A model generated the notes under the pieces. It ran no database searches and was not told where the DNA came from. It saw only the letters and a list, made by a program, of their open reading frames with translations. From positions 1-64,000 of the forward strand of contig JAHPZI010000007.1 in assembly GCA_019058295.1 (NCBI GenBank): a stretch of DNA of 64,000 nt. The letters run 5' to 3'. The translations under genes and the position numbers were made by a program. Origin of the DNA: Promethearchaeota archaeon. Its GTDB lineage: Archaea > Asgardarchaeota > Lokiarchaeia > Sigyniarchaeales > SOKP01. Shown here one piece after another: positions 1-46,071 of the stretch (positions are counted from its first letter, which is position 1; the number at the start of each line of letters is the position of its first letter).

Positions 1-1115
1 CCTGACATCCACGCCCACTTCTTTGAGGTGATGTCAAATCTCCAGAGGTCATTCAACCAACCAAGATCAGCTAATTCGGCAAAACCAAAACCTCCAAATA
101 AATAAAAATTTCCGTCTGTATCTGTCCAAGAAACAGAACCGTATCTGCCTCCTGGATAATTCGCTATATCAGGGACTCCCTTCATGCCATATACACCAGT
201 CGCATCTATGGTTTTATTCCCTGACATCCACGCCCACTTTTTTGAGGTGATGTTAAATCTCCAGAGGTCATTCAAACTCCCCCATCCACCTGATTCATCA
301 TAACCAGTTCCTCCGAATAACCATAAATTTCCGTTCATATCTATCCAAGAATCAGAACCGGCTCTCCCTCCTGGATAATTTGCCATATCAGGAATTCCCT
401 TCGTGCCATATATACCATTTTGATTTGTGGTTTTGTTCCCTGATATCCACGTCCACTCCATTGAGGTGATGTTAAATCTCCAGAGGTCATTCAACATCCC
501 ACCAACTGATTCGGCGTAACCTTGTCCTCCGAATAACCAAAAATTTCCGTCTGTATCCGTCCAAGAATCAGAATACTCTCTACCTCCCGGATAATTCGCC
601 ATATCAGAAACACCCTTCGTGCCATATACACCATATTCACCTTCGGTTTTATTCCCTGACATCCACGCCCACTCTTTTGAGGTGATGTTAAATCTCCAGA
701 GGTCATTTAATAACCCATTATTACCTAACTCGTCATAACCACCTCCTCCGAATAACCATAAATTTCCGTCCGTATCCGTCCAAGAAACAGAAACGTATCT
801 ACCTCCAGGATAATTCGCTATATCAGGTACACCCTTCGTTCCATATGTGCCATTTTGATTTAAGGTCTTATTCCCCGATACCCATGTCCACTCTTTTGTG
901 GTGATGGTAAATTTCCAGAGATCATTCAACCACCCAGAACCACCTGATTCGTTATGACCAAAACCTCCAAATAACCATAAATTTCCATCCGTATCCGTCC
1001 AAGAAACAAACCTATATCTAGCTCCTGGATGATTTGCTATATCAGGGACACCCTTCGTGCCATAAACACCATTTTCACCTATGGTATTATTCCCTGCCAT
1101 CCACACCCAACCATA
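1..1115. repeat. Tandem kelch-coding DNA repeats, block 1 (about 5 units of ~217 bp)
   Basis: A unit of about 216-219 bp recurs, anchored by the sequence ctccagaggtcattca and by tttccgtccgtatccgtcca. The units are highly similar at DNA level, not only in protein, which suggests recent duplication or gene conversion. The block continues beyond the left edge. Confidence 0.9.
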
Positions 1116-4100: not shown

Positions 4101-6509
4101 GGTGTTATTCCCTGCCATCCACGTCCACCCATTTGAGGTGATATCAAATCTCCAGAGGTCATTCAGCTGCCCCCAACCACCTGATTCGGCATAACCATAA
4201 CCTCCGAATAACCAAAAATTTCCTTTTGTATCCGTCCAAGAAACAGGATAATATCTAGCTCCCGGATAATTCCCCATATTAGGAATTCCCTGAATGCCAT
4301 ATACGCCATATTCATCTATTGTTTTATTCCCTGCCATCCACGCCCAACCATAGCTCGCTCCTAAAATACCTTTCCTTACAATAGCATCTACCTTCCTAAT
4401 ATATCCTCTCGAATCATTTACAAAGAAATGAATTAGGACATCTCCATCTCCAAAAGCATCCCATCCTGTCTGATTAATGGTATCGCTAAAGAAAATGCCT
4501 GTAAAGTTATATTTTTTTGGATTGCTCCCTAAAGTATACCACTGAGTATCGGGAATACCTTCCGATACACTACCTGAAAAGGATGGAGCAATTTTAACAT
4601 AGCGTGTATAATTCAAGGGTAAAGTTACCTTAATGACAGGAGGATCCCAAAAAATGGGCTTTTCGTCATAATCAGAACCTCCTGGTATTAAATAAGGTGA
4701 ATCGCCAAACCCATCATCATTAGCATCTTTTCCAGAATAGTCGTCCCAATAGTTTCCCGTCTGAGAATTGTTCCAGTAATTTGTAGCATAATACTCTTTG
4801 GCATTACTCAAGAGATTATTTCTGAAAGTATTATTATAAATGTAAGAATCATTCCCATCTATATATAGACCATATCTACCATTATTAGCAATAGTGTTAT
4901 TAAAAATTATATACTGCGATCCTAACCTTATTCCATTATCTTTATTATTAGAGATGTTACAATTTTTGACAATTCCGTCATACCCTGATGAGTACAATCC
5001 ATCATCGTAATTATTTACAATTTTACAGTTAGTTATAGTTATATTATTACCAGATATAACAATTCCATCTTTGCAATACATGATGGGGCAATTCTTAATA
5101 GTAATGTTAGAACAAGAATACCCTATTCTAATACCAGAATGATTATTGTAAGAAAGTGAATTGTTAAAAATAGTAATATTATTACACCAATCTAAATATA
5201 TACCACATGACCCATTTGAAAGATCAAAGTTAGATATTACTGAATGATTACAATTTATTAGAATAATTTGACCAGGACTTCCATATTTAGTAAAATTATT
5301 GGTATTTAGATAATTCTTGTCTCTATAATAATAGAGTGGCTTTCCATTAATAGTATTTGATCTGTCAATAGCATTTTCCCATCCGGCGTATTCGCTATAC
5401 ACAACTCCACACTCAACCATAATATTTTCTCTTATAGTACAATTACGGCAAGCAGCTATTTCTATTCCAATCCCTTGTCCAGTCATAGTGTTTTTCGAAA
5501 TATTACAATCTTCAGAATCAAATAAATAGACATTATGTTCATTTTTTTCGAACTGACAATTACTAATTGAAATATTCGCCCCAGCATATATTCTTATAGC
5601 ATAATTTTCGAGTGCATGATAATTATTATATGAAAAATTTGAATTAAATAGTGTAATGTTTATGCAATCCTGTAAATATATTCCCATACTAGTGTGGGAA
5701 ATATCAATATCTGAAATTACAGAATCTTTACAATTTATCAACAGTATTTGCCCTGGATTTGAGAAGTTTGCATTATTTAAATTAGAAGTATCTGCATAAT
5801 AGTATACACTGTTATTGTTGACTTTATTTGAAATATCAATACTTGTAGTGATAGCTTCATCTAACCCTATACCAATAATACGTATACCGCAATTTGTCAT
5901 ATTATTATCGATAAGGATATTATTATAACAAGGACCCATAAACCCTCCCCAGAAAGTAATTCCATCACTACAATCATAAATTTCATTATTAGTAATATTA
6001 TTATTATTGGAATTAACTAAAAATATACCTGCTTGATTGTCATATAAATGAGAGTTTATTATTTCACCATTTTGAGAATTGGCTAAGATAATACTTCCCC
6101 ATATTATAGGAGAAAAGGGTCCAGAGAGAACTCTCTCTGCCGTAGTGTTAAAAACTGTACAATTACGAATTTCAAAATAATCATTATTATCTTCAATTAA
6201 AATCCCATATATTCCCCCTTTGCCGTTTATTGTCATGTTTTCAATTACATAGGGATCCCCTGCCGATCCTGATCCTGAGACCCAGCCCAAATTTTTTGCT
6301 ATGGTCCAGTTGTTTTTAATATGGATACGGGTAAAATTATGCCATGATTTAGAGATTCTTGGGTGCTCTGGAATCTCATCTTTAATGATAGTTCCTTTAT
6401 CTGATGATTTATAAGTAAAATTATCATTCTGTTGGGAGATATTGGATCCAATACTCAAAATTACTAAGAATATCAGAAGCCCCCATAAATATACGATTTT
6501 TTTATTCAT
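1..6509 (-). CDS. Giant secreted/surface protein: NosD-like beta-helix, Ig-like domains and kelch propeller repeats (partial, C-terminus outside window)
   Basis: The frame is open from an ATG at 6509 to the left edge, giving more than 2,169 residues without a stop; I checked that the repeat at 50, 3722 and 4379 is in the same frame as the start. After a signal peptide (MNKKIVYLWGLLIFLVILS) comes a right-handed beta-helix of the NosD/periplasmic copper-binding type (about residues 50-610, with short NN/IxN-rich coils). An Ig-like domain and 12 kelch repeats of about 72 residues follow (ending near 1740), then about two Ig-like domains and at least five more kelch repeats. Each kelch unit carries PGAR..SVSWTDTDGN.WLFGG and LNDLWRFNITS. 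The probable role is cell-surface adhesion or glycan binding, which is an inference from architecture. The next gene upstream is a shorter paralogue. Confidence 0.9.
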   Translation of the reverse strand, partial: MNKKIVYLWGLLIFLVILSIGSNISQQNDNFTYKSSDKGTIIKDEIPEHPRISKSWHNFTRIHIKNNWTIAKNLGWVSGSGSAGDPYVIENMTINGKGGIYGILIEDNNDYFEIRNCTVFNTTAERVLSGPFSPIIWGSIILANSQNGEIINSHLYDNQAGIFLVNSNNNNITNNEIYDCSDGITFWGGFMGPCYNNILIDNNMTNCGIRIIGIGLDEAITTSIDISNKVNNNSVYYYADTSNLNNANFSNPGQILLINCKDSVISDIDISHTSMGIYLQDCINITLFNSNFSYNNYHALENYAIRIYAGANISISNCQFEKNEHNVYLFDSEDCNISKNTMTGQGIGIEIAACRNCTIRENIMVECGVVYSEYAGWENAIDRSNTINGKPLYYYRDKNYLNTNNFTKYGSPGQIILINCNHSVISNFDLSNGSCGIYLDWCNNITIFNNSLSYNNHSGIRIGYSCSNITIKNCPIMYCKDGIVISGNNITITNCKIVNNYDDGLYSSGYDGIVKNCNISNNKDNGIRLGSQYIIFNNTIANNGRYGLYIDGNDSYIYNNTFRNNLLSNAKEYYATNYWNNSQTGNYWDDYSGKDANDDGFGDSPYLIPGGSDYDEKPIFWDPPVIKVTLPLNYTRYVKIAPSFSGSVSEGIPDTQWYTLGSNPKKYNFTGIFFSDTINQTGWDAFGDGDVLIHFFVNDSRGYIRKVDAIVRKGILGASYGWAWMAGNKTIDEYGVYGIQGIPNMGNYPGARYYPVSWTDTKGNFWLFGGYGYAESGGWGQLNDLWRFDITSNGWTWMAGNNTTGEYGVYGIKGIPNMGNYPGARFFSVSWTDTDGNLWLFGGAGYAESGGWGQLNDLWRFNITSKEWTWMAGNKSLYENGVYGTKGIPDKANYPGARNISVSWTDMDGNLWLLGGLGFAESGAPGMLNDLWRFNITSKEWAWISGNKTTDEYGVYGTKGVPDTANYPGGRYQSVSWMDTDGNLWLFGGSGFAESGGWGILNDLWRFNITSKKWVWMAGNKTTNQYGVYGTKGVPDRANYPGARWISVSWTDLNGDLWLFGGYGLGELGPIGGSLNDLWRFNITSKEWAWMSGDKTYDQYGVYGTKGVSDIANYPGGRHHSVSWMDTDGNLWLFGGSGYTESDYGFLNDLWRFDITSREWAWMAGNKTTNEYGVYGTKGVPYIDIANYPGARCASVSWTDMDGNFWIFGGNGFAESGVWGQLNDLWRFNITSKEWAWMSGNNTINQNGTYGTKGVPDSANYPGARLGSVSWTDTDGNLWLFGGQGYAESGVWGWLNDLWRFNITSKEWAWMAGNKTTNEYGVYGTKGVPDRGNYPGARVESVSWTDTDGNFWLFGGLGYDELGASGALNDLWRFNITTKEWAWISGNKTADEYGVYGTKGVSDRMNYPGARLQSVSWIDMDGNLWLFGGLGYNESAGPGYLNDLWRFTITSKEWVWISGNKTINQNGVYGTKGVPDMMNYPGSRDTSVSWTDTDGNLWLFGGDGYAESGGFGRLNDLWRFNIASKEWVWISGNNIINQYGVYGAKGAPDVVNYPGSRGQSVSWTDTDGNLWLFGGYGFAESGLDSFLNDLWIFNDSIAPYIMIIEPSYNNLFNATAPFYNLTFIDGNLDDTWYRLWNGTEWSINYTIPGLGSERTGQINQNAWNNCPNGTVIIEFYANDTFGNLRMNSTTIRKDIFGPQITIINPVSNALFSTDAPDNTECNVLFEDGSGVLARWYMLINATDSNHYTGNYTWNDEVDQTVWNQMGNGTVIIRIFANDSLGNIGMAEVTVRKDIFGTNYGWVWMAGNNTIGENGVYGTKGVPDIANHPGARYRFVSWTDTDGNLWLFGGFGHNESGGSGWLNDLWKFTITTKEWTWVSGNKTLNQNGTYGTKGVPDIANYPGGRYVSVSWTDTDGNLWLFGGGGYDELGNNGLLNDLWRFNITSKEWAWMSGNKTEGEYGVYGTKGVSDMANYPGGREYSDSWTDTDGNFWLFGGQGYAESVGGMLNDLWRFNITSMEWTWISGNKTTNQNGIYGTKGIPDMANYPGGRAGSDSWIDMNGNLWLFGGTGYDESGGWGSLNDLWRFNITSKKWAWMSGNKTIDATGVYGMKGVPDIANYPGGRYGSVSWTDTDGNFYLFGGFGFAELADLGWLNDLWRFDITSKKWAWMS
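1735..4365. repeat. Tandem kelch-coding DNA repeats, block 2 (12 units)
   Basis: Twelve copies of the same ~217-bp unit lie head to tail, with the ctccagaggtcattca anchor spaced at about 217 bp from roughly 4150 down to 1747. Third-codon positions are conserved between many units, which points to homogenisation at DNA level. Confidence 0.9.
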
Positions 6510-6697: not shown

Positions 6698-9600
6698 CTA
6701 AGATTTCTTTTTCTTTCTGTAATATAATACTCCACCTAGGATTCCAACCACGATAAATAATAGATAAAAATTACCGAATGATATTGCTTGTTCGTCATCA
6801 TCATCGTCATCTCCAGCTGGCGGGGGTATAACTCCATCAGAGGGCGCTTGAGATTTAATCATAGTCACGTTAGCGAATCCAATATTTCCTGCTGTATCAT
6901 TACAGTAAAAGATAATCCAAATAATTTCTCCATAATCAATGGAATTCCACATTGCATCCCAATCTGTTTCATTTATCTTAGTATTTGAAATAAATGTACG
7001 ATTTTCGGTATAATCAGTTCCGTTGAACAATCTGTACCACATTGTATCGTTATTTGTTTCAACAACAATTATTGTAAATTCTGGAGGTGAATTATATACG
7101 GATTGATCCTCGATCGGCTCAATTATCGTTATATTAGGAGCTATGATATCTTTTCTCACCAAAACGTCATCAAACGCCATCAGTCCGTTTGTTCTGTTCA
7201 AGAAGAATCGAATAACAACCGTCCCATTTTCAAATTGATTCCATAAATTGTATTGAAGCGTATCTTCATATATGCCAGCAATAACTGAATCAGAATATGT
7301 TACATTGTTGGTATAATCATTACTGTTTGTTCCGTTTATTAACATATACCAAATAGTATCTAAGTTTCTGCCTGATACTGAAATTGTGAAATTCATTGTA
7401 TTAATCCCGTAAATATCATTTAAAATAGGATCATTAATATCGATATTTGGTAATTCAATATCTTTCCTTAAAGTAACTTCTGCTATTCCAATATTGCCTA
7501 ACGAATCATTCGCAAAAATTCGGATGATGACGGTACCATTATCCATATAGTTCCAGACAAATTGATCCACCTTGCCATTCCAGGTATAATTGTTAGTATA
7601 GTCCGTGGTATCCGTTCCATTTATGAGCATATACCATCGAGCATCAATACCACTCACATCACTAAATAGAACATTACAATCTGCCAAGCCTGGTGCGGTT
7701 GAGGAAAATAATTCATTCGGAGTGGGAGCATTAATAGTTATTATCGGACCTAAAATATCTTTTCTCACCAAAACATCATCAAACGACATTACACCATCTG
7801 TTCGGTTCAAGAAGAATCGAATAATGACCGTCCCATTTTCAAATTGATTCCAGAGGTTATAATTAATTAGAGCTTCATATATACCCGCAATAACTGAATC
7901 AGAATATGTTAAATTGTTGGTATAATCATTACTGTTTGTTCCGTTTATTAGCATATACCAAATGGTATCTAAGTCTTTTCCCGATACTGAAATTGTGAAA
8001 TTCATGGTATTATTCCCGAAAATATCATTTAAAGTAGGTTTAGTAATAACGATATTTGGTAATTCAATATTTTTTCTTACAGTGATTTCTGCCATTCCAA
8101 TGAAACCTGATGAATCATTCGCAAAAATACGGATGATGACAGTTCCATTTTCCATATAGTCCCAGACGAATTGATCTACCTCGTCATTCCAGGTGTAATT
8201 ATTAGTATAGTCCGTGTTATCCGTTCCATTTATGAGCATATACCATCGAGCATCAATGCCGCTCACATCACTAAAAGTTACATTGCAATCCACCAAACCT
8301 GGTGCGGTTGAGAAAAATAGATCATTTAATTGAGGATTATTTATGGTTATTGTAGGACCTAAAATATCCTTCCTAATAGTGGTAGAATTCATTCTCAAAT
8401 TGTCGGAGGTATCATTCGCATAGAATTCAATAATGACAGAACCATTCGGACAGTCATTCCATGCATCTTGATTAATTTGTCCTGTTCTTTCTGAGCCTAT
8501 TCCAGGAATTGTATAATTTATTGACCACTCAGTACCATTCCAGAGGCGATACCATGTATCATCCAAATGAGCATCAATAAAGGTTAAGTTGTATGAAGGA
8601 GCCGTCGCATTAAATAATTTATTATACTTAGGCTCAATAATCGTGATTTTTGGAGCAATAGAATCTTTAACACTCCCAAACATCCAGAGGTCATTCAGCC
8701 GCCCAGAACCACCTGATTCAGAATAACCAGCTCCTCCGAATAACCAAAAATTTCCATCAGTATCCGTCCAAGAAACCGAATAACATCTAGCTCCTGGGTA
8801 ATTTGCTGTATCAGGAACTCCCTTCGTGCCATATATACCATATTCATCTGTGGTTTTATTCCCTGAGATCCACGCCCACTCATTTGAGGTGATGTTAAAT
8901 CTCCATAGATCATTCAAATAGCCATCATCACCTGATTCGGCATAACCCCAACCTCCGAATAACCAAAAATTTCCATACGTATCCGTCCAAGAAACAGAAC
9001 TCCATCTAGCTCCCGGATAATTCGCTATATCAGGAATTCCTTTTGTGCCATATTTGCCATATTCATTTAGAGTTTTATTCCCTGAGATCCACGTCCACTC
9101 ATTTGAGGCGATGTTAAATCTCCAGAGGTCATTCAGATACCCCCAAGTACCTGATCCGGGATAACCATAACCTCCGAATAACCATAAACTTCCGTCCGTA
9201 TCCGTCCAAGAAACAGAACCTAATCTAGATCCCGGACAATTCAGAATAAAAGGCACTCCCTTCGTAAAATAAAAACCATTTTGATTTGTGGTTTTAGCCC
9301 CTGAGATCCACGCCCACTCCTTTGAGGCGATGTTAAATCTCCAGAGGTCATTCAGCCGCCCGACACCAACTGATTCGGCATAACCGTTACCTCCGAATAA
9401 CCATAAATTTCCGTTTGTATCTGTCCAAGAAGCAGAACATTCCCTCGCTCCCGGATAATTTGCTATATCAGGAACTCCCTTTGTGCCATATACACCATAT
9501 TCATCTGCGGTTTCATTCCCTGAGATCCACGCCCACTCCTTTGAGGTGATGTTAAATCTCCAGAGGTCATTCAGCAGCCCAAAATCTAATTCGGTATAAC

Positions 9601-10156
9601 CCCAACCTCCGAATAACCATAAATTTCCATCCATATCCGTCCAGGAAACAGATTCTAATCTACCTCCTGGACGATTTGCTATATCCGGAACTCCCTTCGT
9701 ACCATATACGCCATCATTATCTATGGTTTTAGCCCCTGAAATCCACGCCCATTCCTTTGAGGTGATGTTAAATCTCCAGAGGTCATTCAACCACCCAATA
9801 GCACCTAATTCGTCATAACCATAACCTCCGAATAACCAAAAATTTCCGTCCGTATCCGTCCAAGAAACAGAATCATGTCTAGCCCCCGGACAATTCGCTA
9901 TATCCGGAACTCCCTTCGTTCCATATACGCCATATTCATCTGTGGTTTTATCCCCTGACACCCACATCCAACCATAGGTCTCTCCCGCTGCTTTTTTTGG
10001 AGGCTCTAATTCGAAATAATTCTTATCTTCTTCAATTATGTCATTCTTTATTGCTGGACCCACTGAATTTCCCGAATTAGAATACTCATTAGTTATTATA
10101 CTGACTCCTATTAAAAATAGCAAAAGCCCCCATAATAATAGGATTTTTTTATTCAT
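6698..10156 (-). CDS. Membrane-anchored surface protein with kelch propeller and Ig-like domains
   Basis: The 1,152-residue protein starts with a signal peptide (MNKKILLLWGLLLFLIGVS). Six kelch repeats cover about residues 60-510 (NDLWRFN anchors), followed by six Ig-like domains of about 95 residues whose starts read like APKITIIEP and LPNIVITKP. Several Ig-like domains share WYMLINGT and NGTVIIR motifs, and NxT/S sites suitable for N-glycosylation are frequent. The C-terminus has a Pro/Gly/Asp linker with DDDDDD, one transmembrane helix (about 1128-1146) and a KKKK tail, so the bulk is outside the cell. It is a shorter paralogue of the neighbouring giant gene, lacking the NosD beta-helix. 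Ligand and role are unknown; adhesion or cell-cell contact is an inference. Confidence 0.92.
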   Translation of the reverse strand: MNKKILLLWGLLLFLIGVSIITNEYSNSGNSVGPAIKNDIIEEDKNYFELEPPKKAAGETYGWMWVSGDKTTDEYGVYGTKGVPDIANCPGARHDSVSWTDTDGNFWLFGGYGYDELGAIGWLNDLWRFNITSKEWAWISGAKTIDNDGVYGTKGVPDIANRPGGRLESVSWTDMDGNLWLFGGWGYTELDFGLLNDLWRFNITSKEWAWISGNETADEYGVYGTKGVPDIANYPGARECSASWTDTNGNLWLFGGNGYAESVGVGRLNDLWRFNIASKEWAWISGAKTTNQNGFYFTKGVPFILNCPGSRLGSVSWTDTDGSLWLFGGYGYPGSGTWGYLNDLWRFNIASNEWTWISGNKTLNEYGKYGTKGIPDIANYPGARWSSVSWTDTYGNFWLFGGWGYAESGDDGYLNDLWRFNITSNEWAWISGNKTTDEYGIYGTKGVPDTANYPGARCYSVSWTDTDGNFWLFGGAGYSESGGSGRLNDLWMFGSVKDSIAPKITIIEPKYNKLFNATAPSYNLTFIDAHLDDTWYRLWNGTEWSINYTIPGIGSERTGQINQDAWNDCPNGSVIIEFYANDTSDNLRMNSTTIRKDILGPTITINNPQLNDLFFSTAPGLVDCNVTFSDVSGIDARWYMLINGTDNTDYTNNYTWNDEVDQFVWDYMENGTVIIRIFANDSSGFIGMAEITVRKNIELPNIVITKPTLNDIFGNNTMNFTISVSGKDLDTIWYMLINGTNSNDYTNNLTYSDSVIAGIYEALINYNLWNQFENGTVIIRFFLNRTDGVMSFDDVLVRKDILGPIITINAPTPNELFSSTAPGLADCNVLFSDVSGIDARWYMLINGTDTTDYTNNYTWNGKVDQFVWNYMDNGTVIIRIFANDSLGNIGIAEVTLRKDIELPNIDINDPILNDIYGINTMNFTISVSGRNLDTIWYMLINGTNSNDYTNNVTYSDSVIAGIYEDTLQYNLWNQFENGTVVIRFFLNRTNGLMAFDDVLVRKDIIAPNITIIEPIEDQSVYNSPPEFTIIVVETNNDTMWYRLFNGTDYTENRTFISNTKINETDWDAMWNSIDYGEIIWIIFYCNDTAGNIGFANVTMIKSQAPSDGVIPPPAGDDDDDDEQAISFGNFYLLFIVVGILGGVLYYRKKKKS
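8675..9985. repeat. Tandem kelch-coding DNA repeats, block 3 (6 units)
   Basis: Six ~217-bp units carry the same ctccagaggtcattca anchor as the units in the neighbouring giant gene. Identity across the two genes is visible in long stretches, consistent with unequal crossing-over between the two paralogues. Confidence 0.88.
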
Positions 10157-12629: not shown

Positions 12630-12960
12630 GACACATGAGATATGGGGCTGACGGTGGGCTAGACCCGCTGAGGAACCTCGCCTCACGTTCCAAGCAAGGA
12701 GTAGATAACTACTATGGTGAAAACCATATTTTAGCAACTGAAACGACACTGCCCTCTTACATATATTAATGATTTGGAAATAAGCCAAAGAAATTGTAAA
12801 AAGGAATGGTTGGAACGAGCTAAAACCCTGGTGCAAGGTCAAATGAAAGCTATGAGTATCTTGGAACGAGCTTTAGGTAGACCGCTTAGTTTGATGCCCC
12901 AAGTATTTATTATTCGGCGACGAAAATACTACAGAAAGGCGGGTATGTATCTCAGGTGTC
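12630..12960 (+). ncRNA. rnpB: RNase P RNA (archaeal)
   Basis: The ends form a long P1 helix: GACACATGAGATA at 12630 pairs with TATCTCAGGTGTC ending at 12960, 13 positions with one mismatch. Inside are features of the RNase P core: a GAGGAA-type 5' conserved segment (ctgaggaacctcgcc, near 12657), gcaactgaaacgacactgccc near 12733, and the 3' segment ACTACAGAAAGGCGGGTA near 12929. The length of 331 is typical of the archaeal RNA. It would cleave 5' leaders from pre-tRNAs. Short open frames across this interval are not convincing proteins. I could not fold it fully by hand; a covariance model search would settle it. Confidence 0.85.
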
Positions 12961-36040: not shown

Positions 36041-38020
36041 ATGAAAAAGGATCAAACTCAATGGAATGATACAAAGAATAACGAAGAATTAGATAAACTA
36101 AGAATAGGATATTATTGTTGCGAATGAGGAATAAATATAAGAGGAAAAATTGACTGCGATAAATTAGCGGAGTATATTAAAAACCTTGATGACGATATAA
36201 TAATATCTAAGAAGAATGCGTTTCTATGAACTGATGCAGCGCAAAATGAAATAATCGAAGATATTAACGAAAAGAACTTAAATCGTATCGTGGCTAGTTC
36301 TTGAACTCCAAGAACGCACGAGCCAATTTATCGCGATTCAATTTCAAAAACAGATTTAAATCCTTACTACTTTCAGATGGTAAATATTCGTGAACATTGC
36401 TCTTGGGTTACAGAAAAAAAAGAGGACGCATTTGAAAAGGCAAAAATTCTAGTAAAGAGTGGTATTGCAAGGGCAAAATGTTTAGAAGTAGTTCCGATCA
36501 GAACTGTACCCGTCGAAAAAGCAACTCTAATAGTAGGGGGTGGAATCGCGGGTATGAATGCTGCGCTCGATTTGGCTAATCAGGGAATTAAAGTTTATCT
36601 TGTTGAAAAAAAGACAACAATAGGTGGTCGCATGGCTCAGCTCGATAGAACATTCCCGACTGATGACTGTGCAATATGAATTTGCGGTCCAAAAATGTTA
36701 GAAGTTAATAGAAATCCTAATATAGAAATAATTAGTTATGCTGAAGTAAAAAAAGTTGAAGGTTATGTTGGGAATTATACTGTAACTGTCGAAAAGAAGC
36801 CTCGATATACAAATAATGATTGTAATGGATGCGGGGCTTGTTCTGAAGTATGTCCCATATACACGATAAATTATTTTGATGAAAATTTAAGCGCTCGAAA
36901 AGCGATTGATATATCATTTGGCCAAGCAGTTCCTTTTCTATATGATATTGATCGAACAGTATGCGTAGAATGCTTTTCTTGAGTGGATGCTTGTGAATTA
37001 GATGCGATTGTATTTAGTCAGGTACCAGAAGAAGTCACCTTTCAAGTCGGTACAATAATTATCGCAACAGGTTGGGATATTCACGAACCCTATGGTGAAT
37101 ACGGTTATGGTGAAATTGAAAATGTTATTACACAAGCACAGCTTGAACGCATGTTGGCTCCAAATGGACCACTTGAAGGGCATGTGCGTAGAATATCGGA
37201 TGACAAAAAACCCAAGGAAATTGTATTTATTCAGTGTGTTGGAAGTCGCGAAACTGATAGAACATATTGTAGTGGAGTTTGCTGCATGCTTGCACTTAAA
37301 AATGGTCGATTGCTTTTAGAAGAATTTCCTGATGCTAATATTACAATATGTTATATTGACATCAGAACAAACGAGAAGGGATTCGAGGAATATTATCAAC
37401 GAGCCAAAGATGCTGGAATGAAAATGATTCGAGGGAAAGTAGGGGAATTCTCAGAAGATCCCGAAACAAAAGATGTTAAAGTACGTGTATATTCCTCTCT
37501 AACTGATGAAATAATTAACATCGATGCAGATTTAGTTGTTCTATCAAGTGCAGCACTGCCTTCACGAGGTACTGAACAAATTGCTAAGGTTCTAAACTTA
37601 GATACGGATAGGAATGGATTTCTTACGGAATCTCATTTTGGTTTGATGCCGCAAGAAACGAAAACAAAGGGAATTTTTATCGCAGGATTCGCTCAGGGTC
37701 CCAAAGACATCGCATATTCCGTATCTCAAGCACGAGCAGCGGCGAGTAAAGTTGCTGAAATGACTTCTGCAGGAGAAATAGAACTTGAACTTATAATAGC
37801 TGAAGTAGATAAAGAATTATGCATTTCATGTAGAAGATGCGAAAAGGAATGTCCAAAATCAGCTATAAAAATTACCGACGCTGAAGGGGCTGTTGTAGAT
37901 GAGATAAATTGTGATGGGTGTGGAATATGTGCGACGTGCTGTCCTACACAAGCAATTGATATACGATATTATAGAGAGAAACAATTATATTCTGAAATTT
38001 CGGCTATTTTAGAATCTTAG
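36041..38020 (+). CDS. hdrA: HdrA with five in-frame TGA (selenocysteine) codons
   Basis: The 659-residue flavin subunit of heterodisulfide reductase is encoded in one frame from ATG 36041 to TAG 38020, interrupted by TGA at 36125, 36227, 36302, 36677 and 36980 (residues 29, 63, 88, 213, 314). Written with U for Sec the contexts are CCEUGIN, AFLUTDAAQ, ASSUTPRTHEP, DDCAIUICGPKM and CVECFSUVDACE. The double HdrA at 42520 has Cys at all five equivalents (CHCGIN, LYSCSSD, VASCTPRTHE, DCSLCILAPKM, GVCGVCEKVC). Order: N-terminal HdrA domain, FAD domain from GGGIAGM (about 165), ferredoxin insert CNGCGACSEVC (about 262), and C-terminal ferredoxins CISCRRCEKEC and CDGCGICATCC. It forms a unit with the Sec MvhD 23 bases downstream. 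Confidence 0.93.
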
Positions 38021-38042: not shown

Positions 38043-38483
38043 GTGGAAAATAATTATTCAATTCTTATGTTTGCGTGTTTAAAATGAGGTTATGGTGCGG
38101 CAGATTTAGCAGGTGTTTCACGATTTAAATACAGTCCTACAGTTAAAATCATCAAATTAAGGTGTACAGGAAGAATTGATGTTAAACATCTCTTGTTTGC
38201 TATAAAATCTGGTGCGGATGGTGTGATGATTGTAGGCTGACGTCCTAATGAGTGCCAATTTAAAGATGGAAACTTTAAAGCCCAAACCCACGTTGATCTT
38301 GCAAATAGAATATTAGATCGTAGAGGTTTTGGGAACCAAAGAATAAATCAGTATTGGTTAAGCTCAGCTGAATCAGAGAAATTAGTAAAAAGTGTTGAAG
38401 ATACAATTGAAAAAATTCAAAGATTAGGGCCTAATCCTCTTAAATCTATCGCAAAAAAAGTCTTAACTACCCCAGCTGAATGA
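38043..38483 (+). CDS. vhuD: MvhD/VhuD (hydrogenase-Hdr linker subunit) with two in-frame TGA (selenocysteine) codons
   Basis: A [2Fe-2S] linker protein that passes electrons to HdrA. Reading starts at GTG 38043, with GGAGGT at 38028, and continues through TGA at 38085 and 38238 to TGA at 38481, giving 146 residues. If the last TGA were also recoded, the frame would run two codons further to TAA at 38490. The protein reads FACLKUGYGAADLAGVSRF, CTGRID and IVGURPNECQF. In the Cys-type copy at 45634 these read FCCNWCSYAGADLAGVSRF, CSGRVD and ITGCHIGDCHY, so both TGA positions align with Cys. A standard open-reading-frame search misses the gene. Confidence 0.9.
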
Positions 38484-38589
38484 ATCTTGTAAATAAATTC
38501 TAGTTACAAGCTAACAATCCTTGCAATGGATGGGGTATTAATGAATAAAATATATATTTTTAAAAATAGGATAAAAATATTGTAGGAAT

Positions 38590-40098
38590 ATGGTTCAAGT
38601 AATAAATAACAAGACTTTTAAGGGCATCTCTCCAAATAAATTAATGGAAGCTACATATAGAGCTGCTGAAAATTTTCAGGTAAGGGCTTTCTATGAAGCT
38701 AAGAATGAAATCTTGAAAGTAGGGAAGTACACAGAAGAAGAATTTTTTAAAATTTTAGATGCGATGATTGATGCTGAGACTGAGCGAAAATTAATATTAG
38801 AGAGATTAAAAAGTAAAGAACCACTGTTTTTGGAAGAGATTGTTAAGATTATCAAGGAATTTTCCCCTGATAATGTTATTCGAGATATAATATATCTTAA
38901 GGAACAAGGTTATATTGATGAAAAAATTGAAGTTAAAACTAAAAAGGTCATAAAAAAGATCAAAGGAGAAGAAAAGGAAGTAGAAGAAAAAGAATATTTT
39001 TATAGATATCAAGTAAAAGATCTTCCAGATGATTTTATTGAACATTATTTTGAACCTGTTTCAATTGTTTTTGAGGCTGAAGTATGTTGTCATTGTGGTT
39101 GGTGTTCATCTATATGCCCTGTGAACGCAATTACAGTCACAGCAGATATATTAGAAATTGATGATAATGCTTGTATGAAATGTGGATTATGCTATACTAT
39201 TTGTCCTCGTTCATTTTCAATCGATCAAGCATATAAAAGTATTAAAAATTTAGATAAATCCTTAAAGTGGTCAGATAAAATTGGGGCTTATTATAACACT
39301 TATTCTGGATCAACTACGAAAGATAAAATTAAAAAAGTCAGGCAAGATGGAGGTGTTGTAACAACTCTACTTGAATATTTATTGAAAAATAAATTGGTTG
39401 ATGCAATTGTTGCGGTTCAACATTCAGTGGATTTATGGAGACCTGAACCTGTGATTGTGGATAATATTAAAGATTTATATAAAACTGGAGGAACGAAATA
39501 TGCAAATTCGCCTTCATTAGAAATCATTGATAAAGCAAAACAATATAACCGTTTAGCAGTAGTGGGCGTTCCATGTATGATGAAAGCTATTGAAAAAGCA
39601 ACATTATTTCCCAGTGGTCTGCCATTTTTTAACAATATTAAATATAAAATAGGGCTCTTTTGTATGGAATCATTTTCATATGCAAAAATAATCAATTTAG
39701 TTAAAGATAAATTTGATAAAGAAATTAATGAGTTAACTAAAATGAATATTGATAAAGGGAAATTTATAATTAACTTAACTTCTGGTGAGGAAATGGCAGT
39801 TGATTTGAAAGAAGTTCAATCTTATGCTCGCCATACTTGTCATTTTTGCGAGGATTTAACATCTGATTATGCTGATATCTCAGTGGGTTCAATAGGATCA
39901 CAGGCTGGCTGGTCTTCAGTAATAACAAGATCAAAAGAAATTGATGAAATTTATAAAGGCGCTGTTAAAGATGGCCTTATTGAATCACAAAACTTAAAAG
40001 AGGTAAAACCAGGGCAATTTTTAGTTGAGCGAATTGCGGGAGTGAAAAGAACAAAGTGTAAAGATCCTTTTTTAGAATTGAAAAAAAAAAGCCAATAA
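38590..40098 (+). CDS. FrhB-like F420/flavin oxidoreductase with N-terminal helical/winged-helix region
   Basis: The 502-residue protein has an unusual N-terminal 150 residues that look like a winged-helix segment with a Lys/Glu-rich hairpin (KKVIKKIKGEEKEVEEKEY). Two ferredoxin motifs, CCHCGWCSSICPV (about 165) and CMKCGLCYTICPR (about 195), precede the FrhB domain with QDGGVVTTLL, VGVPCMMKAI and CHFCEDLTSDYADISVGS. It probably passes electrons between F420 or a flavin and the HdrA proteins around it. It follows the Sec genes by 106 bases and begins a run of plus-strand genes ending in the double HdrA. Confidence 0.9.
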   Translation: MVQVINNKTFKGISPNKLMEATYRAAENFQVRAFYEAKNEILKVGKYTEEEFFKILDAMIDAETERKLILERLKSKEPLFLEEIVKIIKEFSPDNVIRDIIYLKEQGYIDEKIEVKTKKVIKKIKGEEKEVEEKEYFYRYQVKDLPDDFIEHYFEPVSIVFEAEVCCHCGWCSSICPVNAITVTADILEIDDNACMKCGLCYTICPRSFSIDQAYKSIKNLDKSLKWSDKIGAYYNTYSGSTTKDKIKKVRQDGGVVTTLLEYLLKNKLVDAIVAVQHSVDLWRPEPVIVDNIKDLYKTGGTKYANSPSLEIIDKAKQYNRLAVVGVPCMMKAIEKATLFPSGLPFFNNIKYKIGLFCMESFSYAKIINLVKDKFDKEINELTKMNIDKGKFIINLTSGEEMAVDLKEVQSYARHTCHFCEDLTSDYADISVGSIGSQAGWSSVITRSKEIDEIYKGAVKDGLIESQNLKEVKPGQFLVERIAGVKRTKCKDPFLELKKKSQ

Positions 40099-40113: not shown

Positions 40114-41223
40114 ATGCAAAAAACATTCAAGAATTTAATTGAAGAGGTTCATAATAAAGGCATTTGTCAAGAATGTGGTGGGTGTGTAAGTTTTTGTAGT
40201 TCTGCGGAATATGATGTAATAGGTCAAAAAGATCCATATAGTCCACCAGAATATATAAATGAAGATAGATGTCTCGAATGTGGGATATGTTATTATATAT
40301 GTCCACAAACGCATATATTAGATGATGAGCTTAATAAAACGTATAATTTCACAGATTTTTCATCAAAACCTATTGGTAATTATGCTGATATCTTTTCTTG
40401 CCAAGCCACAGATAAGGAATTTTTAGAAAATGGAACTGATGGAGGCGTTGTGAATTCAATAATTAATTTTTTAATGGAGAAAAAATTAATTGATGGTGCT
40501 GTGGTTTCTAGAACAGATGCTCCTTTTTCTAGAGAAGCTACATATGCTGATAGTAAATATGACCTGTTAAAGGCTTCAGGAGCAAAATTAGATATTTCAC
40601 CGCAATTAGATGAAATTCAAAAGTTTTGTACTTATACTCATTCAATCCCTAAATTAAATCATTATAAATTTAAAAAATTGGCAGTAGTGGGAACACCTTG
40701 TCAACTATACACAATTAGATGTATGCAAGATTTAGGAGTTACTCCTTCAGAAAATATTGAAATTTGCCTTGGTTTATTTTGTTATGAGAACTTTTTCTTT
40801 GAAAAATTTCAGATTCAAAAATTTGAGAAAGATTTTAATATAAAATTTTCAGATATAGTGAAAATTAATATTAAAGAAGATGTGATTTTTAAAATAAAAG
40901 ATGAAGGATCTGGAGAAAAAATTATTCATATCCCTTTTAACCATTTAAACGATTATATGCGTCCCGCTTGTAATGCTTGTAATGATTTTACAAATATTTA
41001 TGCTGATATTTCTTTTGGAGGCTTAAGTTCTAATGATAAATATACTACTGTTATACCCAGAACTGAAAAAGGAAAAGAAATTTTATCTAAAGTTATTAAT
41101 GCGGGAGTAATTAATTGTATGGAATTAGATTCGGAAAAAAAAAATAAGATGATTAATTTAATTACTCAATTTTCTAAATCAAAAATTAAACGTAAAGAAA
41201 ATTTTATGAAAAATTTAAAATAG
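40114..41223 (+). CDS. FrhB-like F420/flavin oxidoreductase
   Basis: A 369-residue FrhB-family protein with two ferredoxin motifs at the N-terminus (CQECGGCVSFCSS, CLECGICYYICPQ). The FrhB core follows: GTDGGVVNSIINFL, VGTPCQLYTIR and CNACNDFTNIYADISFGG. In the first motif the fourth Cys is followed by Ser rather than Pro. It lies 15 bases after the longer FrhB-like gene and 4 bases before the HdrBC-like gene, so these are one operon. The two FrhB paralogues may be alternative flavin entry points to one Hdr complex. Confidence 0.9.
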   Translation: MQKTFKNLIEEVHNKGICQECGGCVSFCSSAEYDVIGQKDPYSPPEYINEDRCLECGICYYICPQTHILDDELNKTYNFTDFSSKPIGNYADIFSCQATDKEFLENGTDGGVVNSIINFLMEKKLIDGAVVSRTDAPFSREATYADSKYDLLKASGAKLDISPQLDEIQKFCTYTHSIPKLNHYKFKKLAVVGTPCQLYTIRCMQDLGVTPSENIEICLGLFCYENFFFEKFQIQKFEKDFNIKFSDIVKINIKEDVIFKIKDEGSGEKIIHIPFNHLNDYMRPACNACNDFTNIYADISFGGLSSNDKYTTVIPRTEKGKEILSKVINAGVINCMELDSEKKNKMINLITQFSKSKIKRKENFMKNLK

Positions 41224-41227
41224 GGAT

Positions 41228-42520
41228 GTGAAAAATATAACTGAATCAAAGTCAGGATCAAAAAAAGAATTAGAACGTAAAAAATTATTTTCTGATGCAT
41301 TTAAATATTTAGACAAAGTTTATGAACCAAATTTAAGAAATATTTTGAAAAGATGTTATCAGTGTGGCCGCTGTAGCGGTGTTTGTCAAGTAAGTAAAGT
41401 TCAAAAATTTACTCCAAGTAAAATTATTCAATTAATATTAGAAGGTTTTGAAGATAGAGTAATTGAAAGTGGTGTCTTATGGGATTGTTTAACTTGTAAT
41501 CAATGTCTGAAAGATTGTCCAGAACAAATAAATTTTGCAGATCTTGTACGAATGGCCAGATACAAAATGAGACATGAAGCAGATCAAAATCCTAGTGAGA
41601 TGGTTGCTCATAAAGGGATCTACACTACAATATCTGAACTAATGAGTCGCCCTTATATCGAGCCAGATAGAAATCTTGATTGGATACCTAAAGAATGTAA
41701 AATCACAGATAAGGGAGATACTTTATATTATGTTGGATGTATACCCTATTTTAATTTTGAATTTGAGAATTTAGATAATATCGCATCAAGTACATTAAAA
41801 ATAATGTGTCAATTAGAAGAAGAACCTATTGTAGTTTTTAAAGAAGAAAGTTGTTGTGGACATGATTTATATTGGGGTCAAGGGAAAATAAAAACATTTA
41901 TTAAACTAGCAATGAAAAATATTGAAATGTTCGAAAAAGCAGGAATATCTACAATTGTGACTGCATGTGCTGAGTGTTATAGAACATTTAAAATAGATTA
42001 TCCTAATATATTTGACGATTTTAATGAAAAATTTAAAGTAAAGCATTTAATTGAATATGTGTATGAAAAATGGAAACAGAATAAAATTGCTTTTAAAAAT
42101 CCTAATGAAGATGATAAAGTAATACCTTTTACTTATCATGATCCATGTAGATTAAGCAGATTCTTACCAAATGATAATAATATAACAGAAAAGGTTCGAG
42201 AAATTTTTAAAGAATTTAAAAAATTAGGCTATGAATTTAATGAAATGTTGCATAATAAAGAAAATTCTCTATGTTGCGGAGTTAGTTCTTGGATGAATTG
42301 CAATGAGAAAACTAAAGCGCTGCGATATAAACGTATGTTAGAAGCAAAAGAAGCTGGTGAGATTATGGTTACATCTTGTCCAAAATGCAATATACATCTA
42401 AGTTGCATTCAAAATGATTTTGAGAATATCGCTTCAATTAAAATTATGGATTTTTCTGAATTTTTAGTTGATCATATCGAAGTAATAAAAGACGAAGATA
42501 ATTTGGAGGGAAAGGTGTAG
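41228..42520 (+). CDS. HdrC-HdrB-like (HdrD-type) CCG-domain iron-sulfur protein
   Basis: The 430-residue protein has an N-terminal HdrC-like part with two [4Fe-4S] motifs, CYQCGRCSGVCQV (about 39) and CLTCNQCLKDCPE (about 80). Two CCG domains follow, containing ESCCGHD with CAECYRTFK, and NSLCCGVSS with CPKCNIHLSC. CCG domains bind the noncubane [4Fe-4S] clusters that reduce heterodisulfide in HdrB/HdrD; other families use them for lactate, glycolate or quinone-related substrates. Cys residues of both domains are complete. Its stop overlaps the GTG start of the double HdrA by one base, which implies translational coupling and a shared complex. Confidence 0.88.
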   Translation: MKNITESKSGSKKELERKKLFSDAFKYLDKVYEPNLRNILKRCYQCGRCSGVCQVSKVQKFTPSKIIQLILEGFEDRVIESGVLWDCLTCNQCLKDCPEQINFADLVRMARYKMRHEADQNPSEMVAHKGIYTTISELMSRPYIEPDRNLDWIPKECKITDKGDTLYYVGCIPYFNFEFENLDNIASSTLKIMCQLEEEPIVVFKEESCCGHDLYWGQGKIKTFIKLAMKNIEMFEKAGISTIVTACAECYRTFKIDYPNIFDDFNEKFKVKHLIEYVYEKWKQNKIAFKNPNEDDKVIPFTYHDPCRLSRFLPNDNNITEKVREIFKEFKKLGYEFNEMLHNKENSLCCGVSSWMNCNEKTKALRYKRMLEAKEAGEIMVTSCPKCNIHLSCIQNDFENIASIKIMDFSEFLVDHIEVIKDEDNLEGKV

Positions 42521-45500
42521 TGGAAGGCTCTGTTTTAGTAATTGGGGGTGGTATTGCTGGCATACAAACTTCATTAGATCTCACCGAATTGGGTTTTAAA
42601 GTTTATTTAGTAGAAAGATCACCCTCAATAGGAGGACGTATGTCACAGTTAGATAAGACATTTCCCACTAATGATTGCAGTTTATGTATTCTTGCTCCTA
42701 AAATGGTTGAAGTCTTCAGAAATCCAAATATTGAATTAATGACATATCACGAAGTAAAAAAGGTTACTGGTAAAACTGGTAATTTTCAAGTGACAGTTCT
42801 TAAAAAACCTCGATATATTGATGAGACAAAATGCAAGGGATGTGGTGATTGTGCATCTAAATGCCCAAAAATCGAAGTTCCTAATGCTTTCGATATGAAT
42901 TTAGGAAAAAGAAAATCAGTATATATACCATTTCCTCAAGCTGTACCCCCTATTTATTTAATAGATCCTGAATTATGTCTAAAGCTTACTAAAGGGGTTT
43001 GTGGTGTTTGTGAAAAAGTTTGTCAAGCTGAAGCAATTGTTTATGACCAAAAACCAAAAGAAATTTCAATAAATGTTGGAGCAATTGTTGTAGCTACTGG
43101 ATTTGATATGCCTGCTGAAGAATTATCTTCAAGATGGGGCTATAAATATAAAAATGTTGTAAGTGCTCTTGAATATGAAAGAATCCTATGTGCATCGGGG
43201 CCATTTGAAGGCCATGTTTTAAGGCCGAGTGATGAATCAGAACCAGAAAAAATAGCTTTCATCCAATGTGCCGGTTCTAGGGATTTACATGAAAATGTCC
43301 CATATTGTTCAAGTGTATGTTGTATGTATACTGCAAAAGAAGCAATAATTACTAAGGAACACTCAGATAATTCAAATTGTTTTGTATTTAGGCATGATAT
43401 TAGAGCTTATGGTAAAAATTTTTATGAATTTACTCAAAGGGCTCAAGATGAATATGGGGTTAAATATTTTCAAACAAAAATTAGTAAAATCGAAGAAGAT
43501 AAGGAAACTAATGATTTAATTATCCATTATGAGGATTTAAAATCAGGAAAATTCAATGATTTTCGAGCAAATTTAGTAGTATTAGCTACACCATTAGTTC
43601 CTTCGAAAGGTACAATAGATTTGGCTGAAATTTTGGATATAGAATTAGATCATTACGATTTCTTTAAAGAAAACTCATATTTTAATAAATCTTTATCATC
43701 AAGCGAGGGTATTTTCTTGTGTGGTTTTTGTCAGGGACCAATGGACATACCCGAAACTGTAGCTGATGCAAGTGGAGTTGCTTCTCAAATAGCTGCTTTA
43801 TTAAATTCAGTAAAATATACTGAAACAAAAGAAAAAGTTTTAGAAATACCTGAAATGGAAGTTAAAATATCAGATGAGCCACGAATAGGAGTATTAGTAT
43901 GTCATTGCGGTATTAATATAGGTAAATACGTTGATGTTTCTGAAGTTGTAAATTATCTTAAAACATTACCTTATGTTATTCACAGTGAAGCTAATTTATA
44001 TTCATGTTCCAGTGATTCTCAAGCAAGGATAAAGGAATTAATTAAGGAACATAATTTAAACAGATTTATTGTAGCATCATGTACACCAAGAACTCATGAA
44101 GCATTATTTCAAGAAACATGTCAAGAAGCTGGATTAAATAAATACTTATTTGAAATGGTTAATATCAGAGATCAATGCTCATGGGTTCATATGGGAGATA
44201 ACAAAGCTGCTACTGAGAAAGCTAAGGATTTAATTAGGATGGCAGTTGCGAAAGCACGCTTATTAAAACCATTACCAGAAGCGAAATTGGATATTATACC
44301 CACTACTCTTATTATTGGAGGAGGTGTCTCTGGAATGACTGCTGCATTAAATATAGCTTCTCAGGGATTTAAAGCATATATTATTGAAAAAGAAAATAAG
44401 CTAGGAGGAAATTTAAACAATCTTAATATTTTATATCCAATTCAAGAAGAGGCTTCATTATTTTTGAATGATATCAAGGATAAGGTTAATAACAATAAAA
44501 ATATCCAAATTTTCTTCAATTCTAAAATCAAGAATATTAAAGGTTATATCGGTAATTATGATGTTTCAATTATCGATTCAGAAAATAAAACTTATGATCT
44601 AAAAATTGGAACTATAATTGTCGCCACAGGAGCTCAAGAATTAAAGCCTGATGGAATTTTTCTATATGATAGAAAAAATAGAAATATTATAACTCAATTA
44701 GATTTAGAACAAAAACTAAAAGATAAAGATAAATCATGGTTAGATAATATAAACCGCATAACAACAATTCTATGTGTTAACGCAAGACAAAAAGAAGGAA
44801 TTACTTATTGCTCTAACGTCTGTTGTGGTGTTAGCATTAAAAATATTAATATATTAAAAGAATTGAAACCTGAGCTCGAAATTATTGTTCTTTATAGAGA
44901 TTTCCAAATGGCCAAAAAAGATTTTGAAGAATATTATCGTGAACGTAGAAAAGATGCTGTGTTTTTAAGATATGATTTGGATAATTTACCTAAAATTAAT
45001 AAAACAAATGATAAAATTGAAAAATATAATATAAAGGTATTTGATACTAACTTACAGGACGAGATTGAATTCGAAACAGATTTAATAATTTTATCTACTC
45101 CAATGATCCCAGCGGATAACTTGGAGGAATTGGCAAAAATGCTTAAAGTTCCATTAGATAAAAACGGTTTCTTTTTAGAGGCTCACGTTAAATTAAGACC
45201 TTTAGATTTTGCAACAGATGGAATCTTTTTAGCAGGATGCGCACAATGGCCAAAAAATATTCAAGATTCGATTTCTCAAGCTAATGGTGCTGCGGGGAGA
45301 GCAAGTAGGTTTTTAAGTGCTAAAACAATAACAACCTCAGGTTTAATCGCTGAAGTGAATCCCGAAAGATGTATTGGATGTGGAAAATGTGAATCCGTTT
45401 GCCCTTATAATGCAATAGAAATTAAAGAAGCATCAATGGACTTTGAGGATGTCAGTTTAGTTTTGAAAAAGTCATTCATAAATTCAGCATTATGTAAAGG

Positions 45501-45606
45501 ATGTGGAACTTGTGCTGCTACTTGCCCGAATGGAGCAATTTCAGTGAAACATTACGATTTTGATCAAATTTATGCAATGATTGAATCATATTTATTGGAA
45601 AGATAA
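42520..45606 (+). CDS. Fused double HdrA-like flavoprotein (1,028 residues)
   Basis: Two HdrA-type units lie in one chain. The first starts with its FAD fold, GGGIAGIQTSLDL, then DCSLCILAPKM and a ferredoxin insert CKGCGDCASKCPK. The second begins about residue 455 with the HdrA N-terminal domain CHCGIN..., ASCTPRTHEALF, then a second FAD fold GGGVSGMTAALNI. The second unit lacks the DC..C motif at its equivalent site (GGNLNNLN instead). Two ferredoxin motifs close the protein, CIGCGKCESVCPY and CKGCGTCAATCPN. Start GTG at 42520 has GGAGGG 9 bases before. With two flavins it may bifurcate electrons, as proposed for other HdrA2-like enzymes. Confidence 0.9.
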   Translation: MEGSVLVIGGGIAGIQTSLDLTELGFKVYLVERSPSIGGRMSQLDKTFPTNDCSLCILAPKMVEVFRNPNIELMTYHEVKKVTGKTGNFQVTVLKKPRYIDETKCKGCGDCASKCPKIEVPNAFDMNLGKRKSVYIPFPQAVPPIYLIDPELCLKLTKGVCGVCEKVCQAEAIVYDQKPKEISINVGAIVVATGFDMPAEELSSRWGYKYKNVVSALEYERILCASGPFEGHVLRPSDESEPEKIAFIQCAGSRDLHENVPYCSSVCCMYTAKEAIITKEHSDNSNCFVFRHDIRAYGKNFYEFTQRAQDEYGVKYFQTKISKIEEDKETNDLIIHYEDLKSGKFNDFRANLVVLATPLVPSKGTIDLAEILDIELDHYDFFKENSYFNKSLSSSEGIFLCGFCQGPMDIPETVADASGVASQIAALLNSVKYTETKEKVLEIPEMEVKISDEPRIGVLVCHCGINIGKYVDVSEVVNYLKTLPYVIHSEANLYSCSSDSQARIKELIKEHNLNRFIVASCTPRTHEALFQETCQEAGLNKYLFEMVNIRDQCSWVHMGDNKAATEKAKDLIRMAVAKARLLKPLPEAKLDIIPTTLIIGGGVSGMTAALNIASQGFKAYIIEKENKLGGNLNNLNILYPIQEEASLFLNDIKDKVNNNKNIQIFFNSKIKNIKGYIGNYDVSIIDSENKTYDLKIGTIIVATGAQELKPDGIFLYDRKNRNIITQLDLEQKLKDKDKSWLDNINRITTILCVNARQKEGITYCSNVCCGVSIKNINILKELKPELEIIVLYRDFQMAKKDFEEYYRERRKDAVFLRYDLDNLPKINKTNDKIEKYNIKVFDTNLQDEIEFETDLIILSTPMIPADNLEELAKMLKVPLDKNGFFLEAHVKLRPLDFATDGIFLAGCAQWPKNIQDSISQANGAAGRASRFLSAKTITTSGLIAEVNPERCIGCGKCESVCPYNAIEIKEASMDFEDVSLVLKKSFINSALCKGCGTCAATCPNGAISVKHYDFDQIYAMIESYLLER

Positions 45607-45633: not shown

Positions 45634-46071
45634 ATGTCAAAAACAAAAAGAAAAGTTAAGAAAAAAGATTTTAATCCGGAAATTTTAGTTTTTTGTTGTA
45701 ATTGGTGCTCTTATGCAGGAGCAGATCTAGCAGGAGTTTCAAGATTCCAATATCCTCCTAATATGAGAATTGTTCGTGTTATGTGTTCAGGAAGAGTTGA
45801 TCCCTCATTTGTATTAAAAGCTTTAAAAGAAGGAGCTGATGGTGTTCTTATTACTGGATGCCATATAGGTGATTGTCATTATATCAGTGGTAATGAATAC
45901 ACTCGAGATAGATTTCAAAAACTTCATCAATTTATTATAAAACAACTGGGAATAAATGGAAAACGTGTAAGATTAGAATGGGTAAGTGCCTCTGAGGGAA
46001 AGCGATTTGCTGAATTAATCACTGAATTTACTAATCAAATAAAAGAATTAGGCCCATTTAAAGTTCTTTAA
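45634..46071 (+). CDS. mvhD: MvhD (hydrogenase-Hdr linker, Cys-type)
   Basis: A 145-residue [2Fe-2S] linker of the MvhD/HdrA-associated family. Key Cys lie in FCCNWCSYAGADLAG, MCSGRVDP and GCHIGDCHY. A Lys-rich N-terminal extension (MSKTKRKVKKKDF) is not in the Sec copy. It directly follows the double HdrA and should bind it. It is the Cys counterpart of the Sec VhuD at 38043, about 7.6 kb apart. No hydrogenase large subunit is in the window, so the electron source is not seen here. Confidence 0.95.
   Translation: MSKTKRKVKKKDFNPEILVFCCNWCSYAGADLAGVSRFQYPPNMRIVRVMCSGRVDPSFVLKALKEGADGVLITGCHIGDCHYISGNEYTRDRFQKLHQFIIKQLGINGKRVRLEWVSASEGKRFAELITEFTNQIKELGPFKVL

Follow-up and report, generated by a model that had tools for sequence, protein, structure and literature searches.

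Five selenocysteine codons in an HdrA gene of Lokiarchaeia, with an N-terminal iron-sulfur cluster probably ligated by selenocysteine

In a stretch of 64,000 nucleotides from a Lokiarchaeial genome (hereafter the window), one hdrA gene is interrupted by five in-frame TGA codons, and the HdrA that it encodes is very probably a real selenoprotein. We consider it probable that all five UGAs, which stand at Fe-S ligand positions, are decoded as selenocysteine (Sec) with the help of a single SECIS element located after the following gene, vhuD, and that the N-terminal cluster of the enzyme is probably ligated by Sec. The reading frame of hdrA, its conservation, the SECIS element and the Sec machinery of the genome are shown, and the assignment of cysteines to one cluster and the role of selenium in it are inferred.

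An earlier note on this DNA had described TGA at residues 29, 63, 88, 213 and 314 of one frame with intact ends and a length of 659, and direct reading bears this out: frame 1 of 36041-38020 on the plus strand runs from ATG to TAG over 659 aa, and TGA is the only kind of interruption. Standard ORF calling breaks the same region into three fragments of 100, 95 and 345 aa, just as had been foreseen for ordinary gene callers. The gene and its recoded codons are as follows.

36041..38020, plus strand: hdrA (type I HdrA), 659 aa, five Sec codons
36125..36127, plus strand: UGA codon 29 (Sec), in the C-x-U-G motif that follows strand b1 of the N-terminal Fe-S domain
36227..36229, plus strand: UGA codon 63 (Sec), following strand b2 of the N-terminal domain
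36302..36304, plus strand: UGA codon 88 (Sec), in the (S/A)-U-T-P-R motif that follows strand b3 of the N-terminal domain
36677..36679, plus strand: UGA codon 213 (Sec), equivalent to Cys197 of the structurally solved HdrA (aligned to 5ODC residue 197)
36980..36982, plus strand: UGA codon 314 (Sec), in the inserted ferredoxin domain, where it is the third ligand of C308-x2-C311-x2-U314-x3-C318

The product is a complete type I HdrA, with the N-terminal Fe-S domain, the FAD/thioredoxin-reductase domain, and the inserted as well as the C-terminal dicluster ferredoxin domain. It aligns with 5ODC over 639 residues (E 7e-192), its Fer4 and FAD domains are detected by profile search, and Foldseek on an AF2 model with a mean pLDDT of 80.8 returns solved HdrA chains as the top matches. 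Cys or Sec is present at all 27 of its Cys columns.

The alignment to HdrA proteins which the earlier note had proposed was made with 109 sequences of the same Lokiarchaeia class, a non-random set of orthologues and paralogues partly picked for high TGA counts, and there the TGAs keep to the Cys columns. A total of 334 TGAs fall within these 27 columns and, leaving aside the frame-shifted partial row L091, five lie off them, three upstream of the start and two isolated in coding sequence (position 125 in L124 and position 176 in L079). TGA is found at column 213 in 107 sequences, at 29 in 104, at 88 in 71 and at 63 in 38, and more rarely at 314 (7), 311 (4), 604 (1) and 627 (1); at columns 63 and 88, the homologues lacking TGA have TGT or TGC. 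Counted per gene, the TGAs at Cys columns number two in 23 sequences, three in 47, four in 34 and five in only two, the window gene and L042. The expectation that HdrA usually carries far fewer Sec residues therefore fails within this class, where 81 of the 109 have three or four. As to the description of five Sec as very unusual, the number itself is indeed rare (2/109), but because three or four are usual it is one step beyond the norm rather than an isolated oddity.

Relatives of HdrA occur in 83/83 genomes of the class, and close orthologues (66-84% identity) in about 45 of the 83, nearly all with 3-5 TGAs. Four genus mates of the window's genome (G026-G029), two of them more than 90% complete, show no close orthologue of this hdrA, their best matches among those listed being paralogues at about 51%; loss or transfer is a possible background of these missing orthologues. 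On a tree obtained by quick search, where state changes pool gain and loss, column 213 changes once, 29 twice, 63 and 88 eight times each, 311 once and 314 three times. Among 80 broader loci, bacterial Sec-HdrA have Sec at 213, in one case also at 210, other Asgards have it mostly at 29 and 213, and 63 together with 88 is found as Sec only in the Lokiarchaeial type; this pattern suggests that Sec may have accumulated stepwise in HdrA, beginning at 213. The HdrA of Candidatus Stahlbacteria (L197) has TGA at columns 210 and 213, a possible UxxU pair. In one clade of genus g2 (L070 and L092-L094), Sec occurs at 311, the second ligand of the inserted ferredoxin motif and not the third.

HdrBC-like and FrhB-like genes lie downstream of hdrA in the same orientation:

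38590..40098, plus strand: F420 hydrogenase/dehydrogenase beta subunit of FrhB/FdhB-like type, which contains a ferredoxin domain and is a probable partner (PF04432, 134.7 bits)
40114..41223, plus strand: second FrhB/FdhB-like F420 subunit (PF04432, 126 bits)
41228..42520, plus strand: HdrBC/HdrD-like Fe-S subunit with CCG and dicluster domains (PF02754, 73.2 bits)
42520..45606, plus strand: double HdrA fusion of 1028 aa, Cys-only; its N-domain Cys lie in the second half and the Cys197 equivalent is confined to the first
45634..46071, plus strand: Cys-type MvhD/FlpD (PF02662, 189.5 bits)

Because FrhB-like, HdrBC-like, fused HdrA and MvhD genes come after hdrA, a putative F420-linked or hydrogenase-linked bifurcating complex is likely. 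Elsewhere in the window, positions 1-4346 and 8683-9970 hold tandem repeats of a 219-bp (73-codon) unit, present 5 to 12 times and in part contained in an ORF of 1152 aa, and an archaeal RNase P RNA is located at 12632-12958 (131 bits).

Regarding the cluster concerned, residue 213 aligns with Cys197 of 5ODC, and Cys197 of methanogen HdrA ligates the N-terminal cluster of the partner protomer (PMC9012536). The other ligands of this cluster must be supplied by the N-terminal domain, in which positions 27, 29, 63 and 88 are invariant as Cys or Sec. In the AF2 model, residues 29, 63 and 88 come after strands 22-27, 53-59 and 82-87 at one sheet edge, with a helix at 30-33 after the first of these strands, and local pLDDT in this region is about 80-93. 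The conserved Cys27, Cys120 and Cys210 are never Sec in the class, save for the out-of-frame L091 at 27; that apparent Sec at Cys27 arose from the frame-shifted partial sequence and was discarded. Since 213 is a cross-protomer ligand and 29, 63 and 88 lie at one domain edge, and since Sec occurs at these three sites and not genuinely at 27, the common Sec sites probably make up all ligands of a single inter-subunit [4Fe-4S] cluster, with 29, 63 and 88 coming from one protomer and 213 from the other, as we infer from the strand layout of the AF2 model. Cys27, which is also invariant, could serve as ligand in place of Cys29.

The fused double HdrA that begins at 42520 divides these residues, with the N-domain Cys in one half and the equivalent of Cys197 in the other, a pattern read as one cross-protomer cluster (PMC9012536): sites 29, 63 and 88 match C463, C496 and C521 in the second half, and sites 213 and 314 match C56 and C164 in the first. 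The earlier claim that the five TGAs align with Cys of this protein thus holds, with the nuance that the protein is a fusion of two HdrA. As a ligand, U314 is part of the C308/C311/U314/C318 motif that the inserted ferredoxin domain carries. That Sec lies near the clusters, as first noted, can be sharpened: four sites probably supply every ligand of one cluster and the fifth provides a ligand in the inserted ferredoxin domain, and thus Sec would line the low-potential branch. A [4Fe-4S] cluster held by four selenocysteinates from two protomers, together with, in this genome, a further Sec ligand in the ferredoxin exit domain, would amount to a stepwise replacement of sulfur by selenium ligands along one branch of an electron-bifurcating enzyme, to which we give somewhat better than an even chance.

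An alternative is that Sec-HdrA is real and its Sec residues act as redox-active selenols in CxxU or CxU pairs, mainly not as cluster ligands. HdrA has been listed as a selenoprotein with a CxxU redox motif (PMC9312934), CXXU/UXXC motifs are described in an Asgard paper (PMC11291895), and the spacing of C210-x2-U213 and C27-x-U29 fits; against it, the solved homologue uses residue 213 to ligate a cluster, no Cys that could pair with U63 or U88 lies close to them, and the rarer Sec gains also fall at ferredoxin ligand Cys (311, 314, 604 and 627). We regard this alternative as unlikely. Slightly less likely still is an HdrA with four Sec residues, in which TGA314 is an assembly error or a rare variant and the true residue is Cys. 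This codon comes from one MAG, the nearest homologues have Cys at 314, and isolated non-Cys TGAs, which are possible errors, amount to about 2 per some 70,000 homologue codons. On the other hand, L042, L154 and a paralogue clade of five genomes also have TGA in this column, which makes 314 a used Sec site, and only 28 of the 90 hdrA codons one step from TGA are at Cys.

Returning to the decoding of all five UGAs as Sec, the signal for it is found behind the next gene:

38043..38483, plus strand: vhuD/mvhD/frhD (FlpD family), GTG start, Sec codons 15 and 66 (PF02662, 141.6 bits)
38467..38540, plus strand: SECIS, eukaryote-like type I (AUGA at 38480-38483, apical loop AUAAA..., lower stem ACCCC/GGGGU)

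Both Sec codons of vhuD match conserved sites in homologues. A third vhuD TGA was rejected as Sec and is better taken as the stop, since in homologues a TAG directly precedes it or a TAA comes earlier in another frame. This stop TGA (38481-38483) overlaps the AUGA core of the SECIS, and hence the UGA read as stop lies inside the element that recodes the upstream UGAs. The element combines an AUGA_AA core, a 7-bp stem plus A-U and an A-rich AUAAA loop, that is, the AUGA_GA/AA core, upper stem and A-rich loop of the Asgard eSECIS-like type I. Compensatory changes occur at 7 of 9 upper-stem pairs over 26 related elements, and the three-helix structure beats 500 of 500 shuffles and all slid controls. 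A covariance model built on 18 elements of other genomes, with the window sequence excluded, gives one match in the 64-kb window, at 38467-38540 (75.4 bits, E 6.5e-17); Rfam at the gathering threshold gives no SECIS in the window. This SECIS is probably common to hdrA and vhuD: it lies downstream of hdrA in the presumed hdrA-vhuD transcript unit, co-transcription being assumed, at about 2.35 kb from the first UGA of hdrA, and as the single SECIS after vhuD it would serve all 7 UGAs of the pair. Archaeal genes have been described with one or two Sec each and a SECIS distance of 70-1,500 nt (PMC9499178), and the hdrA-vhuD pair departs from this norm in both respects.

Elsewhere in the genome, the model scores next best behind selD, behind a small ORF, behind a further hdrA-vhuD pair, and within a VhuU-like reading, RCFDCULSCAAH... 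(L230, G000:C5, minus strand). L228 (G000:C14:94087-94311, minus strand), L232, L233 and L235 each encode a small protein that spans the membrane once and has a linker rich in Gly and Asp; each carries an in-frame UGA, in the context GGGGUGC in L228 and L232 and CFUH in L233 and L235, followed by a SECIS match of 43-52 bits; the two pairs are only 31-35% alike. These proteins are a candidate small membrane selenoprotein with a layout like that of eukaryotic SelK/SelS.

The Sec machinery, for which the earlier note had suggested a search, is encoded in the same genome, a 3.2-Mb MAG of 79% completeness. A tRNA-Sec with UCA anticodon is located at C30:102616-102699 (44.2 bits, just under the gathering threshold of 47), directly adjoined by SepSecS (480 bits in TIGR03531), and an archaeal SelB lies about 3 kb away. 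This SelB was found via TIGR00475 and PF21440, scoring above the cut-off in PF21440 (aSelB_III) and just under it in TIGR00475 (238 vs 242 bits); PF21208, the eukaryotic SelB domain III, had zero matches anywhere, controls included, and is hence uninformative. The SelD of the assembly carries an in-frame TGA of its own (Sec-SelD), and no convincing match to PSTK was found in the assembly of this 79%-complete MAG. With tRNA-Sec, SepSecS, SelB and SelD all present, the Sec reading of the hdrA TGAs is supported, and it withstands the objection that the earlier note had named as fatal to it, a genome lacking Sec machinery.

Two further explanations of the interrupted frame are rejected as having hardly any chance. 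A pseudogene with nonsense mutations would account for five in-frame stop codons, but every segment between the TGAs is under purifying selection (against four homologues, differences at third positions far exceed those at first, and first generally exceed second, with 43/21/172 for first, second and third positions in codons 315-659 against L030), the stops are TGA only and at Cys only, the same TGAs recur in dozens of genomes, and an intact vhuD and a SECIS adjoin hdrA. A genome-wide reassignment of UGA to sense, without Sec recoding, would likewise open the frame, but hdrA and vhuD are the only known-gene frames in the window with internal TGA, the other TGA-interrupted frames being either unannotated, most of these shadows of other genes, or end extensions of ORFs, while TGA falls on Cys sites and both a SECIS and a tRNA-Sec exist.

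The proposed mechanism would then run as follows. tRNA-Sec and SelB would decode UGA at the five Fe-S ligand positions of HdrA, under the direction of the one SECIS past vhuD. The N-terminal [4Fe-4S] cluster, which joins the HdrA dimer and is located on the FAD-to-ferredoxin branch, would be ligated by Sec29, Sec63 and Sec88 from one protomer and by Sec213 from its partner, and Sec314 would contribute a selenolate ligand to a cluster in the inserted ferredoxin domain, along the same exit route. Selenium would likely tune the potential, the transfer rate, or the robustness to oxidants or in assembly of this low-potential branch. Because the genome also has Cys-only HdrA paralogues, the Sec form may be conditional.

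Reportedly, Mariotti et al. described Sec-HdrA of Lokiarchaeota, its pairing with VhuD and a eukaryote-like SECIS in 2016, and their abstract is said to give multiple Sec for three of five Lokiarchaeal selenoprotein families; because of this, a multi-Sec HdrA as such is probably not new. In Lokiarchaeia, Sec-HdrA, the hdrA-frhD pair and a shared eSECIS-like type I element with the AUGA_AA core as a described variant are known from Huang et al. 2024 (PMC11227280), and the window locus is alike in family, gene pair, element type, core and host. A 2026 review mentions multiple Sec for FrhD/VhuD only. The parts of PMC11227280 covered here and the reviews give no numbers of Sec for individual HdrA proteins, no HdrA with five Sec and no assignment of Sec sites to the ligands of one cluster, and, within the literature thus covered, the five-Sec HdrA, the pattern over 109 sequences and the one-cluster reading appear to be new. 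Compared with methanogen HdrA of HdrABC-MvhAGD (5ODC/5ODI, 8RVU, 7BKB), fold, domain order and ligand Cys positions are the same, with 45-46% identity to 5ODC and 8RVU; methanogen HdrA, however, has one Sec or none (in 9SFI the site corresponding to 213 is occupied by a non-standard residue, presumably Sec), whereas the window HdrA has five, four of them in or towards the N-terminal cluster region. Many UGAs in one message with a 3' SECIS are also known from animal Selenoprotein P, an unrelated protein, in which Sec carries selenium while the Sec of HdrA appear to be cofactor ligands.

Discussions of selenocysteine mostly treat it as a catalytic residue or as a lone ligand. If the present reading is true, a cluster held wholly by selenium may exist in nature, and the repeated independent change from Cys to Sec at Fe-S ligands of one enzyme, up to four of them on one cluster, would mean that nature tunes electron-transfer clusters by selenium, for which the HdrA set with 0 to 5 Sec would be a natural comparison series. 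At the same time, 7 UGAs and about 2.35 kb to the SECIS would stretch the known range of archaeal decoding, and standard annotation, which breaks such genes, conceals an enzyme at the core of energy metabolism in a lineage near the eukaryotes.
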